Assembly: GCA_001464065.1 (NCBI GenBank)
Contig: LNDN01000065.1
Location: forward strand, 1-64,000
Source of the DNA: Acidobacteria bacterium Ga0077522
Lineage (GTDB): Bacteria > Acidobacteriota > Vicinamibacteria > Vicinamibacterales > Vicinamibacteraceae
Direction of reading: 5' to 3'
Length of the DNA stretch: 64,000 nucleotides
Under the pieces are notes generated by a model. The model saw nothing but the letters and a program-made list of their open reading frames with translations, did no database searches and was not told the origin of the DNA. Shown here piece by piece: positions 19,054 through 31,088 of the stretch (within the stretch, counting starts at the first letter, position 1; each line of letters opens with the position of its first letter). A program made the position numbers and the translations under genes.

Positions 19054-20439
19054 TCACGCGGTGTGCCAGCGCCGCAGCAGGCCCTGCATCGCCCCGCGGG
19101 CGTCGCTGATCACGTCGGGGATGCCGACGGCCCGGAAGCCGCTGCCGCAGACGGCCACGGGCGGCAGCGCCGCCATTGCGGTTTCGATCTGCGCCACGCG
19201 GTCGGCATGGCCCACCTCGTGTTGGGGGCTCATGCCCGTCCAGCGCACCACCCGTGTCAGTACCGGGTCGCCACTGATGCCGAAGCGGCGGGTCCAGCTG
19301 GCGTGCGCGAGGGCGACCAGGTCCTCGTCGGTCCGGGCAAGCACGGCCTCGTCGAACGCGCCGCCGAAGAACCCGCGCAGGAGCGTGGTCCCGCCCGGCG
19401 CGCGGCCGTTCCACTTGCTGCTCAGCCAGCTGGTGGCGAGCAATGGCTCCCGCCCGGGTTCGGGCGTCGAGACGTAGCCGCTGCCCCGCATCGGCCGCGC
19501 AATCTGCTGGTCGCGATACGCCGCCAGTACGCCAGCGCTGGAGACATAGCGGATCCCCGCCGCCAGGTCGGCGGCCACCGGCAGCACGGGGCGCAGCCAC
19601 CCGGCCACGACCGGCGCCGGCGCGGCGAGCAGGAGCAGGTCGGCCACGAGCGTGTGTCCGGCACGGGTGCGGACCTGCCAGCCGGCGCCATCGGCGGCCA
19701 GCGCGTCGGCGCCATCGCCGAGGTGCAGGGTGCCGGCCGGGAGGGCGGCCGCGAGCGCGTCGACCAGCGTGGCCATCCCCCGCGGGAAGCTCCGGAAGGC
19801 GCCGCCGGCCACGGCGCGCGCGGCCTGTCGCCGCAGGGCGAGCAGCACGCTGCCGCCCCGGCGTTCGACGGCCACCAGCTGCGGCAGGACCGCGGCCGCC
19901 GACAGCCGGTTCAGGTCACCCGCGTGGATCCCGCCCAGCAGGGGCTGGGCGATGCGGTCTGCGGCCTCGGCGCCGAAGCGCCGCCGGAAGAAGGCGCCGG
20001 CGCTCTCGTCGCCGCCTGACCGCCGGCGAGGGATGAGCGGCTCGAGCGCCACGCGGACCTTGCCGGCGGGTGACAGGAGGGTCGAGGCGAGGAACGGTCC
20101 GGGCCTCGTGGCGATGCCGAAGGCCCCGCCCTCCGGCAGGGCATGCAAGGTGTCCTGCCGCAGGACCCATGCGCCGCGTGGAGGCTTCATGCCGATCAGG
20201 TCGCCGTCGATGCCGAGTTCACGGCACAACCCGATCGCGCCGGGTTTGCTGATCAGGAAGGAGTCGGGGCCGGCATCCAGCACGTACGGGTCGAGGATGT
20301 CGGTGCGGATGACGCCGCCCGCCCGGTCCTGGGCCTCGACGACGGTCACCGGCAGGCCGTGCCGGTGGCACTCCCACGCGGCGGCCAGGCCGGCGATGCC
20401 GCCGCCCAGCACGAGCACGCGCGGGGCGGTCGTGCTCAT
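19054..20439 (-). CDS. hemG: Protoporphyrinogen/coproporphyrinogen oxidase (HemY/HemG type)
   Basis: An FAD-dependent oxidase of late haem synthesis, 461 residues. The N-terminal Rossmann motif is GGGIAGLAAAWECHRHGLPVTVVEA, followed by GAGGVIRT-like DRAGGVIRTD. The C-terminal FAD contact is CGSGFRAVGIPDVISDARGA. The ATG at 20439 overlaps the hemE stop (ATGA), and the two act in the same pathway. Whether it oxidises protoporphyrinogen IX or coproporphyrinogen III cannot be told without comparison; no hemH lies in the window to help decide. Confidence 0.85.
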   Translation of the reverse strand: MSTTAPRVLVLGGGIAGLAAAWECHRHGLPVTVVEAQDRAGGVIRTDILDPYVLDAGPDSFLISKPGAIGLCRELGIDGDLIGMKPPRGAWVLRQDTLHALPEGGAFGIATRPGPFLASTLLSPAGKVRVALEPLIPRRRSGGDESAGAFFRRRFGAEAADRIAQPLLGGIHAGDLNRLSAAAVLPQLVAVERRGGSVLLALRRQAARAVAGGAFRSFPRGMATLVDALAAALPAGTLHLGDGADALAADGAGWQVRTRAGHTLVADLLLLAAPAPVVAGWLRPVLPVAADLAAGIRYVSSAGVLAAYRDQQIARPMRGSGYVSTPEPGREPLLATSWLSSKWNGRAPGGTTLLRGFFGGAFDEAVLARTDEDLVALAHASWTRRFGISGDPVLTRVVRWTGMSPQHEVGHADRVAQIETAMAALPPVAVCGSGFRAVGIPDVISDARGAMQGLLRRWHTA

Positions 20440-21482
20440 CGCTGACGCGTGGCGGTGAGGGCGTGTACCAATCGAGCGACGCGCTGGACGACGTCGGGTG
20501 ACGTCATGGGCAGGACGCCATGGCCCAGATTGAAGATGTGCCCCGGCCGGCCGCCGGCGCGCGACACGATGTCCTCGACGGCGGTGCGGATGCGCGACCA
20601 CGGTCCGAGGAGCAACGTGGGGTCGAGATTGCCCTGGATCCCGCGTTCGGGACCGATGAGCTGCCAGGCGCGATCGAGGGGCGTGCGCCAGTCGGCCCCG
20701 ACGACCGCGCTACCGGCCGTGGCCATGTCCTCGAGGAGCATCGCGGTGCCGACGCCGAAGTGGATCGAGGGCACGTCGAGGTCGGCGATCGCCTCGAAGA
20801 CGCGCCGCGTGTGGGGCAGGGCGAATTCCCGGTAGTCGGCGGGGCCCAGCTGGCCGACCCAGGAGTCGAAGACCTGCACGGCGTCCACGCCAGCCGCCAC
20901 CTGCGCGCGCAGATAGGCGCCGGCCATGTCGGCGAGGCGTCCGCAGAGGGTGTGCCAGGCCTCGGGCTCGGTGTACATCATGGCCTTGGTGCGGGCGAAG
21001 TCCTTGGAGGGGCCGCCTTCGATGCAGTAGGAGGCGAGGGTGAAGGGGGCGCCCACGAAGCCGATCAGGGGGACGTCGAGCCGCGGCTTCAGCTGCCGAA
21101 TCGTGTCCAGGACATAGCCGAGGGCGAAGGCCGGGTCGATGGGGTGGAGGCGGTCGATGTCCGCGGCCGAGCGGATGGGGTCGTCGAACTGGGGGCCCTC
21201 GCCCTTCACGAAGTCGAAGGTGAGCCCCATGGGCTCGAGCGGGAGGAGCAGGTCGGAGAAGAGAATGGCGGCATCGATCTCCATCGCCTCGACCGGCTGG
21301 AGGGTCACCTGGGCCGCCAGATCAGGGGTCTTGCAGAGTTCCAACATGCCGTATTGCTGGCGCAAAGCCCGGTATTCGGGCATGTATCGTCCCGCCTGGC
21401 GCATGAACCAGACGGGGGTGGCGTCGACGGGCTGGCGCCGGCAGGCGCGAAGGAATCGGTCGTTCACGGTAGAGAAGGGCAC
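20436..21482 (-). CDS. hemE: Uroporphyrinogen decarboxylase
   Basis: Decarboxylates the four acetate groups of uroporphyrinogen III to give coproporphyrinogen III. 348 residues, normal length. Signature motifs: PVWFMRQAGRYMPEYR at about 23-38, the substrate-contacting AILFSDLLLPLEPMGL, and GFVGAPFTLASYCIEGG. The start is a GTG at 21482; a second GTG five codons in (VNDRFLRA) is equally possible, because many family members begin NDRFL. It forms an overlapping pair with the downstream oxidase gene, and is divergent from the nuclease-like gene. Confidence 0.93.
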   Translation of the reverse strand: MPFSTVNDRFLRACRRQPVDATPVWFMRQAGRYMPEYRALRQQYGMLELCKTPDLAAQVTLQPVEAMEIDAAILFSDLLLPLEPMGLTFDFVKGEGPQFDDPIRSAADIDRLHPIDPAFALGYVLDTIRQLKPRLDVPLIGFVGAPFTLASYCIEGGPSKDFARTKAMMYTEPEAWHTLCGRLADMAGAYLRAQVAAGVDAVQVFDSWVGQLGPADYREFALPHTRRVFEAIADLDVPSIHFGVGTAMLLEDMATAGSAVVGADWRTPLDRAWQLIGPERGIQGNLDPTLLLGPWSRIRTAVEDIVSRAGGRPGHIFNLGHGVLPMTSPDVVQRVARLVHALTATRQR

Positions 21483-21655: not shown

Positions 21656-23296
21656 GTGGCGATTCTCATCCGTCCGGTACGCGAACAATTCGAGCACGAC
21701 CGGGTCATCCGGGCGTTGGAACTCGCGCTAGGCGAGCGATTCGCCGTCGAGGTCAACGTCGGGGATGAACGGAAGGTGCCCATCAAGACCGGCACCGGCC
21801 AGGCCTATCCCGATCTCATCCTTTCGACCCTGGACCCGGCGCGCAAACCGGTGGCCATCGTCGAGGTCGAGACCGGTGAGTCGGTCAACAATCTCGAAGC
21901 GATGTACCAGTGGGTCCTGTTTGCCAAGGCCCGCGCGCAGTTCCGACTCTACGTGCCGGTGGCGGGCGTGGACGCCGCTCGGCGTCTTTGCACCCAGCAC
22001 TCCATCGCCGCGGCCGAAATTTGGTCGTATGCCTCCCTCGGCGGCGACCAGATTCGCCTGGAGCGAGTCTTTCGGGACCCCGCCCTCCCCAACGACACCA
22101 GTACCCCCTCGGCCGAACCGCTGGTCGACATCGTGTCGATTCGGACGAGGCGGGCCAGTGACATCGAGGCGGCCGTCGAGTCGGCCATCCAGAACCCGCG
22201 TCGCGACGACAGTCCGGTCGACAGCCGCCGGGCGATTGCCGAGGCCGCCGCGGCCGCCGCTGCCGAACCGCTGCGCCTGCCGCCGCTGAAGCCGAAGGCG
22301 GGCAAGGCCAAGGCGACCAAGACCGCCGCCAGGGTGGCGCCGCTCCGGCCGACCACCCCGGTGCCGTTCGTGCCCAACGCCACCGCCACCGCCGCAGCGG
22401 TCGCGGCCGTCAAGGCGGCAGCTGCGGCCAAGGCTGCCGCGGCCCGACCCGTGACCGTCGACGTGGCCCCTCCGCCGGTCGTCGTGCCGGAGCCGGTCGC
22501 GCCGGTGGCGACGCCCGCGCCGGCACCGACGCCCAAAGCCGACACCGCCAGCCCGCCCGCGGCCCGCCCGGCCCCGGCCGCCAAGTCCGCGGGGGCCAAG
22601 GTCGAGCGCAAGACTCAAGGGGCCGTCGCGCCGCCGCCAGCGAAGACGGCCGCACCCGCGAAGGCCGCCGTCCCGCCCGCCAAGGCCGCCAAGCCGGTCG
22701 TGGCCCCCAAGGCCGCGCCCGCCCCGAAGCCGGTCACCGCCAAGGCGCCCGCAGCCAAGGCGAGCTCTGGCGCCAGGGCCGTCTCGTCGAAGCCGGCCCC
22801 AGCGAAGCCTGCCCGGGGCGTCGCGGCCAAGCCCGCGACCACCAAGGGCGGCGCCGCCAAGGCGGCCCCAGGCAAGACGGCCCCACGGGCGACCAAGGCG
22901 CCCGCGCCTCGTGCCGTCGCGTCGGCGCGCCAGGCCAGTCCTGCGCGCGGAGGCGCCAAGAGCAAGCCCGCCACGCCGGCGGCCAGGCCCGCGGCGAAGG
23001 CGACACCGGCACGTCCGGCCGGGAAGGCGGCCAAGTCGGCGCCCCCGGCGCGCCCGGCCCGCTCGGCTGCCAAGGCCGCGCCGCGCACGGCGTCCAAGAA
23101 CGGTCCGACCCGCAGCGCCACCGCCGCCCGCGCGGCCAAGGCGCCTGTCCGCGCTGCCAAGGCGACGCGTACTGCGGCGGTGGCCAAGGGCGCGCGTCCA
23201 TCGACCAGTCGCGCGACGGCCGGCCGGACGCCGGCGAAGGCGTCGGCCCATCGTGCGACCGCCCGTCCCTCGGCCGCCAAGCCGAAGCGGAAGTAG
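21656..23296 (+). CDS. Nuclease-like N-terminal domain fused to a histone H1-like Lys/Ala/Pro tail
   Basis: 546 residues from a GTG with GGAG 6 nt upstream. Residues about 1-150 form an alpha/beta domain whose order YPDLILSTLD ... VAIVEVETGES ... EAMYQWVLF recalls the PD-(D/E)xK fold: a D after a strand, then ExE and a helix with a Gln. This assignment is inference; the canonical lysine is replaced by threonine or is absent. From about residue 200 the protein is almost entirely Ala, Lys, Pro, Arg and Ser in AAKPA-like units, the composition of histone H1-like DNA-binding tails. It begins a possible three-gene operon. It could act on DNA; no function is established. Confidence 0.55.
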   Translation: MAILIRPVREQFEHDRVIRALELALGERFAVEVNVGDERKVPIKTGTGQAYPDLILSTLDPARKPVAIVEVETGESVNNLEAMYQWVLFAKARAQFRLYVPVAGVDAARRLCTQHSIAAAEIWSYASLGGDQIRLERVFRDPALPNDTSTPSAEPLVDIVSIRTRRASDIEAAVESAIQNPRRDDSPVDSRRAIAEAAAAAAAEPLRLPPLKPKAGKAKATKTAARVAPLRPTTPVPFVPNATATAAAVAAVKAAAAAKAAAARPVTVDVAPPPVVVPEPVAPVATPAPAPTPKADTASPPAARPAPAAKSAGAKVERKTQGAVAPPPAKTAAPAKAAVPPAKAAKPVVAPKAAPAPKPVTAKAPAAKASSGARAVSSKPAPAKPARGVAAKPATTKGGAAKAAPGKTAPRATKAPAPRAVASARQASPARGGAKSKPATPAARPAAKATPARPAGKAAKSAPPARPARSAAKAAPRTASKNGPTRSATAARAAKAPVRAAKATRTAAVAKGARPSTSRATAGRTPAKASAHRATARPSAAKPKRK

Positions 23297-23311
23297 GGAC
23301 GAGGAGCGCCG

Positions 23312-23779
23312 GTGCCGCTGATCCGCCTGGCCCGGGACAAGCGCGGGCTCGACACCCTCTATCTCCTGCACCACCGACCGGACGGGCGCGGCGAGCCGCG
23401 CCTGCGCGTCATCTACTTCTGCGCCGCCGCGCAAGGCCTCGACTTCGGCCGACAGGCGCTGGATCCGCAGACGCAACGCGCGCTCGAGCAACGCTATCCG
23501 GACGTCGCCTTCGACTGGCAGGCCCTGCTCAAGGAGATCGAGCAGCGACGCCTCCCGCCGCAGGTCGAACCGCAGGCGCGCCGGTCGCGGCCGGCCACCA
23601 AGACCGAGCGACGGCCTCCGCCGTCTGAAGCACCGGCAGAGAAGACCGCCGGAGCCAGCAAACGGAAGCGGCGACGTGGGGGAAGCGGGCAGTCCAGCCC
23701 GTCCGCTCGCGCGAACTCCGGCACGGCAGATTCCGCATCGGTGTCGCCTCCGGTCGCGGTGCCTCCTATAATCGAATGA
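23312..23779 (+). CDS. Hypothetical protein with basic C-terminal tail
   Basis: 155 residues from a GTG preceded by GAGGAG. The N-terminal ~80 residues are compact (LARDKRGLDTLYLLHHR, PRLRVIYFCAAAQGLDFG, YPDVAFDWQALLKEIEQRR) and resemble small hypothetical proteins of Acidobacteria with an ARDKRGLDTLYLLHH opening. The C-terminal half is disordered and rich in Lys/Arg/Ser (SKRKRRRGG). It starts 15 nt after the H1-tailed gene and its stop overlaps the next start (ATGA). No family function is known to me. Confidence 0.6.
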   Translation: MPLIRLARDKRGLDTLYLLHHRPDGRGEPRLRVIYFCAAAQGLDFGRQALDPQTQRALEQRYPDVAFDWQALLKEIEQRRLPPQVEPQARRSRPATKTERRPPPSEAPAEKTAGASKRKRRRGGSGQSSPSARANSGTADSASVSPPVAVPPIIE

Positions 23780-25050
23780 TGCCTGTACGTCTGAGCCGAC
23801 TCGGATTGCGCGCCGCAGCGGTCCTGCTCGGCGTGGCCACACTCCCCGCGCAGCAGCAACCGGCCCCGCCGGCGCCCGCTGGTCCGCAGGACCCGTCCCG
23901 TCCCGACTTCGCGGTGACGACCAGCCTGGTCAGCACCGACGTGATCCCGCGCGATGGCGCCGGGCAGTTCCTCGCCGACCTCAAGAAGGAAGACTTCATC
24001 GTCAACGAGGACGGCGTCGAGCAGATGGTCGCCTCGCTCACGCTGGTGCACGGCGGGCGCTACTTCAACCTCGCCGCGCCGCCGCCGGCGCCGGTCGAGG
24101 AGGGGATGGTGCTGCCGCCGCCCCGTCCGGTCAACGACGCCGCCGGGCGCATCTTCCTGCTGTTCGTCGACGACCTGCACCTCGACTTCCGCAACACGCC
24201 GCGCATCCGCGACCTGTTCAAGAAGATCTCGACCGAGCTGATTCACGACGGCGACATGTTCGGCATCGTCTCCACCGGGCCGTCGTCCATCTCGGTGGAC
24301 CTCACGTACGACCGCAAGCGGCTCGACGAGTCGATCAAGAAGATCAGCGGCAGCGGCCTCAAGCCCAAGGACATCCTGGAGCAGCCCAACGGGCAGCAGG
24401 GCAACCAGGAACTGCGCTATCGCGCGCACGTCGCCTTCAGTACCGCGTTCGACCTGATGCGCGAACTGGAGAAGGTGCAGAACCGCCGCAAGGCGCTGAT
24501 CTACGTCACCAACGGGTACGACTTCGACCCGTTCCCGCAGGGGCGCCTGCAGCGCGACGCGCTGTACGGCTACAACCAGACGGGGATGGACCCTCGTGAC
24601 CCCGCGGCCGTCACCAATCGCCAGGGGCAGCAGTTCGCCGACGCCGACCTGGCGCGCGAACTGGCGGACCTGACCCGCGCGGCCAATCGCGCCAACGCCA
24701 CCATCTACACCATCGACCCGCGCGGCCTCGTCGGCGGCGCCGAGATGGACGACGAGGTGGACATGGTCGAGTGGAACAACCACGTGCGCAAGACGCAGGA
24801 CAGCATGCGCGTCCTGGCCGAGGAGACCGGCGGGACGGCGGTCATCAACCAGAACGACTTCGCGAAGGCGCTCAAGAAGATCGACGCCGAGACCAGCGAC
24901 TACTACGTGCTCGGCTACTACTCGAGCAACCCCGATCCGACGCGCAAGCGGCGGCAGATCGAGGTCAAGGTGAAGAAGCCCGGGGTGCAGGTGTGGGCGC
25001 GCAAGGGCTACGCGCTCAAGACCCCGAAGGACGACGAGAAGTCGAAGTAG
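23776..25050 (+). CDS. VWFA-related Acidobacterial domain protein, secreted
   Basis: 424 residues with an N-terminal signal peptide (LRAAAVLLGVATLPAQ) and a Pro/Ala linker. The body shows the VWFA-related domain found in many copies in Acidobacteria: VSTDVIPRDGAGQFLADLKKEDF, FLLFVDDLHLDFRNTPRIRD, KALIYVTNGYDFDPF and the closing DYYVLGYYSSNPD ... VKVKKPGVQVWARKGY. The canonical MIDAS DxSxS is not obvious. The start overlaps the previous stop, so it belongs to the same operon. Its extracytoplasmic ligand is unknown. Confidence 0.85.
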   Translation: MMPVRLSRLGLRAAAVLLGVATLPAQQQPAPPAPAGPQDPSRPDFAVTTSLVSTDVIPRDGAGQFLADLKKEDFIVNEDGVEQMVASLTLVHGGRYFNLAAPPPAPVEEGMVLPPPRPVNDAAGRIFLLFVDDLHLDFRNTPRIRDLFKKISTELIHDGDMFGIVSTGPSSISVDLTYDRKRLDESIKKISGSGLKPKDILEQPNGQQGNQELRYRAHVAFSTAFDLMRELEKVQNRRKALIYVTNGYDFDPFPQGRLQRDALYGYNQTGMDPRDPAAVTNRQGQQFADADLARELADLTRAANRANATIYTIDPRGLVGGAEMDDEVDMVEWNNHVRKTQDSMRVLAEETGGTAVINQNDFAKALKKIDAETSDYYVLGYYSSNPDPTRKRRQIEVKVKKPGVQVWARKGYALKTPKDDEKSK

Positions 25051-25093: not shown

Positions 25094-26436
<1,343 letters not shown>

Positions 26437-26440
<4 letters not shown>

Positions 26441-30146: not shown

Positions 30147-31088
30147 TCAGGCGTGGACGTCGGGGCCGATGCGGTCGCGGCCAGGCGGCGGGATGACCCG
30201 CAGCCGCGGCTTGACGCGATCGAAGGACGCCAGCACTTCCTGGACCGCGCGCGGCACGCGGTTGGCGCGCACGTAGACCCACCCGGTCTCGCGAATCAGG
30301 GTCTGCCCGGTGATGCGGGCGCAGAAGAACTGGCCGGACGCCACCTCGCGGGCCACGCTCTGATACGAGATGATCGACAGCCCCAACCCGGCCCGCACCA
30401 GGGCCTTGATGATCTCGACGTTCTCGGTCTCGGTGACGATCTGCGGGACGATCTGGTTGCGCAGGAAGAACTCGTCGACGACCCGGCGCGTGTTCGACCC
30501 GGTCTCGAACAGCACGAACGGCTGGTCGCGGAGGTCGGCCGGCGTCACCCGGGCCTTGCTGGCCAGCGGGTGGTTGGGCGACGACACCACGAGCAACTCT
30601 TCCTGCAGGGCCGGCACGGTGACCAGGTCGGGGTCGCTGATCGGCAGTGTCAGGAGGGCGACGTCGGCCGTGCCCGAGCGCAGACCCGCCAGGCACTTGT
30701 CGGTGGCGCCCGCCGTGATCTTGATCTCGGCGTCGGGATGATGCTTGCGGAAGTCGCGGAGCAGGGCAGGGAAGACGTACAGGCTGACCGTCATGCCGCC
30801 CGCCAGCCGGACCGGGCCGATCAGGGACGCCTGCGTGTCGGTGATCCTGGCGACGGTGTCCTTCAGGTCCAGGAAGACCCGGTGGCTCAGTTGCAGCAGG
30901 GCCTCGCCCGCCGGGGTGATGCGGATGCGGCGGCCGATCCGGAGGAAGACGGCCTCGTTGAGTTCTTCCTCGAGCAGCAGGACCTGCCGACTGATCGCCG
31001 ACTGCGAGACGTTGAGCTTCTCGCCGGCGGCGGTGAAGGAGCCGGTCTCGGCAATGGCCCGGATGATTTCGAGTTGGCGAAGGTCCAT
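30147..31088 (-). CDS. LysR-family transcriptional regulator
   Basis: 313 residues. The N-terminal winged helix-turn-helix is MDLRQLEIIRAIAETGSFTA then AAGEKLNVSQSAISRQVLLLE. The effector-binding domain (about 90-295) is of the periplasmic-binding type, with VRLAGGMTVSLYVFPALLRDF and ALVRAGLGLSIISYQSV. The target and inducer are not evident; adjacent same-strand genes are the threonine operon downstream, behind a terminator, and a small unknown gene upstream. No divergent partner lies next to it, which is unusual for this family. Confidence 0.9.
   Translation of the reverse strand: MDLRQLEIIRAIAETGSFTAAGEKLNVSQSAISRQVLLLEEELNEAVFLRIGRRIRITPAGEALLQLSHRVFLDLKDTVARITDTQASLIGPVRLAGGMTVSLYVFPALLRDFRKHHPDAEIKITAGATDKCLAGLRSGTADVALLTLPISDPDLVTVPALQEELLVVSSPNHPLASKARVTPADLRDQPFVLFETGSNTRRVVDEFFLRNQIVPQIVTETENVEIIKALVRAGLGLSIISYQSVAREVASGQFFCARITGQTLIRETGWVYVRANRVPRAVQEVLASFDRVKPRLRVIPPPGRDRIGPDVHA

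Follow-up and report, generated by a model that had tools for sequence, protein, structure and literature searches.

A Vicinamibacterales locus with a predicted PD-(D/E)xK-fold protein carrying a histone-H1-like tail, a small basic protein and a VWA-domain protein

Proteins of the PD-(D/E)xK fold, such as the PaqCI nuclease domain, NucS/EndoMS, AF1548, YaeQ, XisH and SfsA, share a core with an Asp on the second strand, a Glu on the third and an N-terminal helix bearing a conserved Glu. Natural variants of this superfamily without the motif Lys exist. The E-x-E site of BamHI presumably has the D-x16-E-x-E spacing that is also found in the protein described here. A literature search for this BamHI motif was without usable result. 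A second kind of relevant protein is represented by AlgP and PhaF of Pseudomonas, which have Lys/Ala/Pro-rich, acid-poor, histone-H1-like C-terminal tails; tails of such make-up are disordered and bind DNA, and that of AlgP is also required for polyphosphate granule spacing (PMC9239181). The N-terminal domain of AlgP is predicted to be alpha-helical and that of PhaF binds PHA granules (PMC9239181).

Features of both kinds meet in gene A of the locus analysed here. Its product has the predicted core topology and length of the PD-(D/E)xK proteins, with the Asp, the Glu and the helix Glu in the same places, and differs from them by an E-x-E motif, by fusion to an H1-like tail and by having no sequence-level match (Pfam, NCBIfam, PADLOC, PDB). 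It shares the tail type of AlgP and PhaF, but the N-domain is alpha/beta in the model and the tail is without a regular KPAA array. Unlike BamHI-type E-x-E endonucleases, gene A appears to be vertically inherited and is order-wide. Nor does the locus look like type II restriction-modification, as a search for the PF01555 methylase that adjoins gene C in relatives did not find it in the genome of the window or in those of its congeners. Gene C is an ordinary member of TIGR03436, save that its orthologue is fixed beside genes A and B. The locus represents a new lineage and a new architecture built from known folds. Literature searches on acidobacterial VWFA proteins and on genes A, B and C yielded nothing usable.

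Arrangement of the locus and its occurrence in Vicinamibacterales

The window, i.e. the whole 64,000-nucleotide stretch analysed, belongs to contig 65 in a draft genome of 5.44 Mb. The features are:

20436..21482, minus strand: hemE, divergent from gene A; beyond it lie hemG, an O-methyltransferase-like gene and an arginase-like gene
21656-23296, plus strand: gene A, GTG start at 21656, stop codon 23294-23296, 546 aa
21656..22090, plus strand: gene A N-terminal domain, residues 1-145, predicted PD-(D/E)xK-like fold (AF2 model, VIA-align matches, 80-sequence conservation)
22091..22267, plus strand: gene A linker, residues 146-204, with an Ala-rich end (seen in translation, window plus three congeners)
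22268..23296, plus strand: gene A tail, Lys/Ala/Pro-rich and histone-H1-like, residues ~205-546, then the stop codon (translation, composition)
23312-23779, plus strand: gene B, 155 aa, compact N-domain (residues ~1-75) and short Arg/Lys-rich stretch
23776-25050, plus strand: gene C, 424 aa, VWA-domain protein, TIGR03436 (NCBIfam score 173.5 bits, cut-off 81.25)
25098..25128, plus strand: terminator-like stem-loop of 13 pairs, 3' of gene C and within the end of the convergent lysC (consensus match only)

A GGAGG Shine-Dalgarno-like sequence can be read about 5 nt 5' of the GTG codon of gene A. Gene B starts 15 nt past the end of gene A and is overlapped by gene C over 4 nt. Consensus matching in the window found no terminator-like site on the plus strand within A-B-C, and genes A and B would be carried on the same message here.

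The N-domain of gene A is present in 48 of 60 relatives, and the locus recurs in three congeneric genomes (gene A identity 82-93%). How far does the gene extend beyond these? In a phylum sample of 297 genomes, 30 from Vicinamibacterales and 267 from elsewhere, gene A occurs in 27/30 and gene B in 25/30 of the former, and each in 0/267 of the latter; gene A is single-copy. A scan of a collection with one genome per species (84,980 species) gave 103 gene A places, of which the best 80 were kept, and depends on short exact motifs, so that distant relatives elsewhere could be missed. The named relatives in that scan belong to Acidobacteria/Vicinamibacterales, barring two records titled Acidimicrobiia and Bifidobacterium breve (L105, L116). 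In these, gene A has ~50% identity and the usual neighbours, and they are probably mislabelled metagenome bins. Searches of phage and plasmid collections did not turn up gene A; a mobile or phage origin is therefore unsupported, and the best reading is of a chromosomal, vertically inherited gene.

Absences also occur. The near-complete genomes G050 and G057 have neither gene A nor gene B, gene B has been lost in several families that keep A and C, and in one genome, L176, genes B and C stand directly after hemE with gene A gone. The pair is thus not essential everywhere, and the losses of B together with the loss of A in L176 indicate that the two are separable. Draft contigs end in or soon after gene A, in or near its tail, at L108, L119, L121, L126, L150 and L177/L178, and one genome has gene A at the end of one contig and gene B at the end of another; where a neighbour seems to be missing, the cause is consequently in some cases a gap in the assembly.

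Selection can be read from close pairs, where dN/dS is 0.03-0.22 for the gene A N-domain and 0.14-0.54 for its tail; the ranges are 0.03-0.32 in the gene B N-domain, 0.15-0.71 in the remainder of B and 0.05-0.42 in gene C. Gene A is under strong purifying selection, and the low ratios, with the presence of gene A in 48/60 relatives, mark A, B and C as real genes. Co-evolution of the three by pairwise distances gave rank correlations of 0.01-0.57 over all gene pairs, with distances that are saturated and therefore uninformative.

The order A-B-C, divergent from hemE, hemG and the O-methyltransferase-like and arginase-like genes, is kept over Vicinamibacterales, and the neighbourhood formed by the latter four is common to many relatives. 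Gene C follows gene A in all 53 loci with enough sequence, and 62 of 69 have gene B in between, a count that includes the window, where the long gene A tail put B beyond the distance limit. The A-B spacing is mostly 2-60 nt. hemE lies within about 1.8 kb of gene A in 28/41 loci, and the gene 3' of C varies. Some families have B and C separated by rpiB, devB or a VTT/DedA-like gene, partly on the opposite strand, so that C can stand alone transcriptionally. One branch has the VTT/DedA-like gene, which codes for a membrane protein, overlapping or directly adjoining the end of B (L083:7407-8021, L087:5887-6516, L120:7311-7925, L124:2344-2955). A PF01555 N6/N4 DNA methylase gene comes next after gene C in 21 of 47 loci (e.g. 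L083:10742-11626, minus strand). In the window a lysC-thrC-thrB-hom block separates gene C from a LysR-type regulator gene (30147-31088, minus strand), whose near kin are found directly 3' of gene C in other families.

An earlier note on this DNA had described a possible three-gene operon: a protein with a histone-like tail of '~345' residues, a small protein with a compact domain and an Arg/Lys-rich stretch that overlaps the third gene, and a secreted VWFA protein; it had also staked its reading on the three genes staying together in relatives. The descriptions of the products were borne out, with a tail proper of about 342 residues (~205-546), and the genes do stay together. The unrelated genes between B and C in some families show, however, that an operon of all three is not universal. 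Is linkage proof of a shared role? Regional synteny is generally high, and linkage alone is therefore weak proof; that between A and C is evidence of a stable locus, not of shared function.

Predicted fold and basic tail of the gene A product

The N-domain of gene A, modelled by AF2 from an alignment of 80 sequences, has a pLDDT of 91.5 and a pTM of 0.87. VIA-align places it closest to PaqCI (Z 8.9), AF1548 (8.5), NucS (8.3) and EndoMS (8.0), with YaeQ (8.0), XisH (7.5) and SfsA (7.3) further on, and the small subunit of BspD6I, NgoMIV, BsaWI, AgeI, SdaI, Bse634I, SgrAI, FokI, NotI, NucC and Hjc also in the list. Z values of 8-9 with 3-4 A rmsd denote fold-level likeness only, and a single Z is weak; the assignment is made because nearly all of the 50 rows listed are PD-(D/E)xK-fold proteins. 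We count among these YaeQ, XisH and SfsA, which we take to have the fold and whose entry titles are without the word 'nuclease'. Foldseek alone gave nothing significant for the N-domain, its best match being a tRNA-splicing endonuclease subunit (E 0.07). The domain is thus predicted to be an E-x-E variant of the PD-(D/E)xK fold with the common alpha-beta core.

Nineteen positions are invariant in the 80 sequences: R6, P7, R9, E10, Q11, E13, H14, R16, L21, N34, D53, E70, E72, S76, E81, W86, L98, P101 and E121. In the model, the first helix carries E13; D53 marks the start of strand 54-57 and E70 the end of strand 65-71, with E72 after it. The acidic metal-ligand pattern is present, D53 being on core strand 2 and E70 on core strand 3. 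The third motif position, however, is always Glu (E72) and never Lys, so the canonical E-x-K is not found. With E-x-E in its place, 'nuclease' describes the fold and not the activity. A metal-dependent nuclease activity is plausible on the modelled site; the E-x-E motif could also be catalytically dead.

The earlier note had suggested a nuclease-like protein with a PD-(D/E)xK-like fold, had named a non-nuclease fold as the outcome that would speak against it and had placed the three-gene composition outside the named systems known to it. Structure prediction of the N-domain returned the PD-(D/E)xK fold, which upholds the first part; the word 'nuclease-like' stands for the modelled fold but does not carry over to activity. 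As to named families, neither gene A nor gene B has a credible sequence-level match to any Pfam or NCBIfam family or PDB sequence, and PADLOC (gene A) and PHROGs (gene B) gave nothing above noise. Scattered weak family hits for both genes were set aside as noise, since the members disagree with one another.

Beyond the N-domain, the linker (residues 146-204) shows conservation confined to the genus, as judged from the window and three congeners. From residue 146 on, the product consists of 33% Ala, 16% Pro, 10% Lys and 8.5% Arg, with Asp+Glu below 4% and aromatics nearly nil; the tail proper (~205-546) has none of the latter. A basic tail is found behind the N-domain in every relative with a readable tail; over 41 loci the median is 83 aa, the range 42-407 and the net charge +13 to +67. 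A further 80 gene A loci show it too, a few of them truncated by contig ends. Length thus varies while composition and positive charge are kept, as is expected of a disordered polycation.

Genes B and C

Other gene B members are longer: a variable linker joins the conserved N-domain to a three-helix domain, and an Arg-rich stretch follows. The genus of the window has lost this C-terminal three-helix domain. The N-domain has the pattern RDKRGYE...LYWFR..P..VGR..LD...PD..FDW. In a model of one relative it forms a three-stranded sheet with helices, and a three-helix bundle occupies residues 129-202. Foldseek and VIA-align gave nothing convincing for this model, the matches spanning the three-helix bundle only. 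In one relative, a distant copy of the gene B N-domain opens a TPR protein of ~470 residues (L175:1157-2770, plus strand), which hints at a wider unnamed domain family.

Gene C matches TIGR03436 (acidobact_VWFA) over its full length and far over the cut-off, and its product has a Sec-like signal sequence, as judged by eye. About 19 copies over the cut-off are present in the window's genome. The gene C copies at the A-B locus form one clade against 35 paralogues (support 95/97) and are a single orthologous lineage.

Possible functions of the gene pair

What might these genes do? The reading we lean towards, tentatively, is of a tail-tethered PD-(D/E)xK-fold protein for chromosome upkeep, with B as an accessory and C not necessarily of the same function. 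The disordered H1-like tail would keep the gene A product on DNA, where the N-domain would act on or recognise DNA structure in repair, recombination or nucleoid organisation; we infer both metal-dependent cleavage by the domain and this cellular role. The gene B product might be another basic protein that binds nucleic acid and helps A without being indispensable. That of gene C would be exported, and may share the locus and probably the transcript without sharing the function; a functional tie to A and B is doubtful. A bolder version, held still more loosely, is that of an order-defining chromatin-bound nuclease, with the E-x-E domain on an H1-like tail working with the order-specific basic protein B in a DNA-maintenance module undescribed in bacteria.

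The main rival makes gene A a non-catalytic tether like AlgP and PhaF, in which a DNA- or polyphosphate-binding tail is joined to a nuclease-fold module that recruits something to the nucleoid, such as a granule or a protein complex. The replacement of E-x-K by E-x-E is consistent with this, as are the wide range of tail lengths (42-407 aa), which a tether leads one to expect, and the Lys/Pro/Ala-rich tail, similar to that of AlgP, which is disordered and binds DNA (PMC9239181). It is nevertheless unlikely: E13, D53, E70 and E72 are invariant in 80 order-wide sequences, and a dead domain would need none of them; furthermore, inspection of the window recognised no polyphosphate or PHA genes. 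A role of A and B on RNA (processing, decay or ribosome-associated) rather than DNA is quite unlikely. Basic disordered tails also bind RNA, full-length gene B members have Arg-rich ends and the tRNA-splicing endonuclease subunit is the weak top Foldseek match of A; on the other hand, the structural matches of A are mostly DNA enzymes and its tail is H1-like, not RGG-like.

Could the three genes instead form one unit that links cell surface to chromosome, with the VWA protein as a sensor or adhesion part? The constancy of C after A (53/53, against 28/41 for hemE beside A), the single orthologous clade of C at the locus and the 4-nt B/C overlap in the window point that way. But in several loci B and C are set apart by a VTT/DedA-like gene and by rpiB or devB in convergent orientation, and there C must have its own promoter; C is exported by a signal sequence and A and B are without one, and the genome has about 19 members of the C family over the cut-off. 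Such a unit seems very unlikely. A restriction or anti-phage nuclease, partnered by the N6/N4 methylase that often adjoins C, is barely credible, even with the methylase after C in 21/47 loci and with fold matches of A that are mostly restriction enzymes. In the window's genus, which has an intact A under strong purifying selection, the methylase was not found, and this leaves a restriction system for A unsupported; moreover, A is single-copy and order-wide, with no PADLOC match above noise and no occurrence found in the phage and plasmid collections.

Other candidate roles were tried. Replacement of RuvC by gene A was rejected, RuvC being present in 29/30 relatives, and a NucS-like substitution for MutS/MutL is unlikely, as MutL is over the cut-off in 29/30. 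Nor is HU missing: the genome has four HU/IHF-family genes.

Should the tail-tethered reading hold, it would give bacteria an example of an enzyme that a histone-H1-like tail anchors to chromatin, and would add a new piece to the DNA-maintenance machinery. Soils harbour Acidobacteriota widely and in abundance, and most conserved genes of unassigned function in this phylum are unstudied; genes A and B are core to a whole order and come with a testable biochemical prediction, a metal-dependent nuclease on an H1-like DNA tether. One possible study system is Luteitalea pratensis, a relative in culture that came from temperate grassland soil (PMC5900883).

An H1-like extension is also seen next to the locus. 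The aspartate kinase LysC (25094-26440, minus strand) has its own Lys/Arg/Ala-rich C-terminal tail of ~40 residues, which is kept in three congeners and is shorter in another genus of the family.
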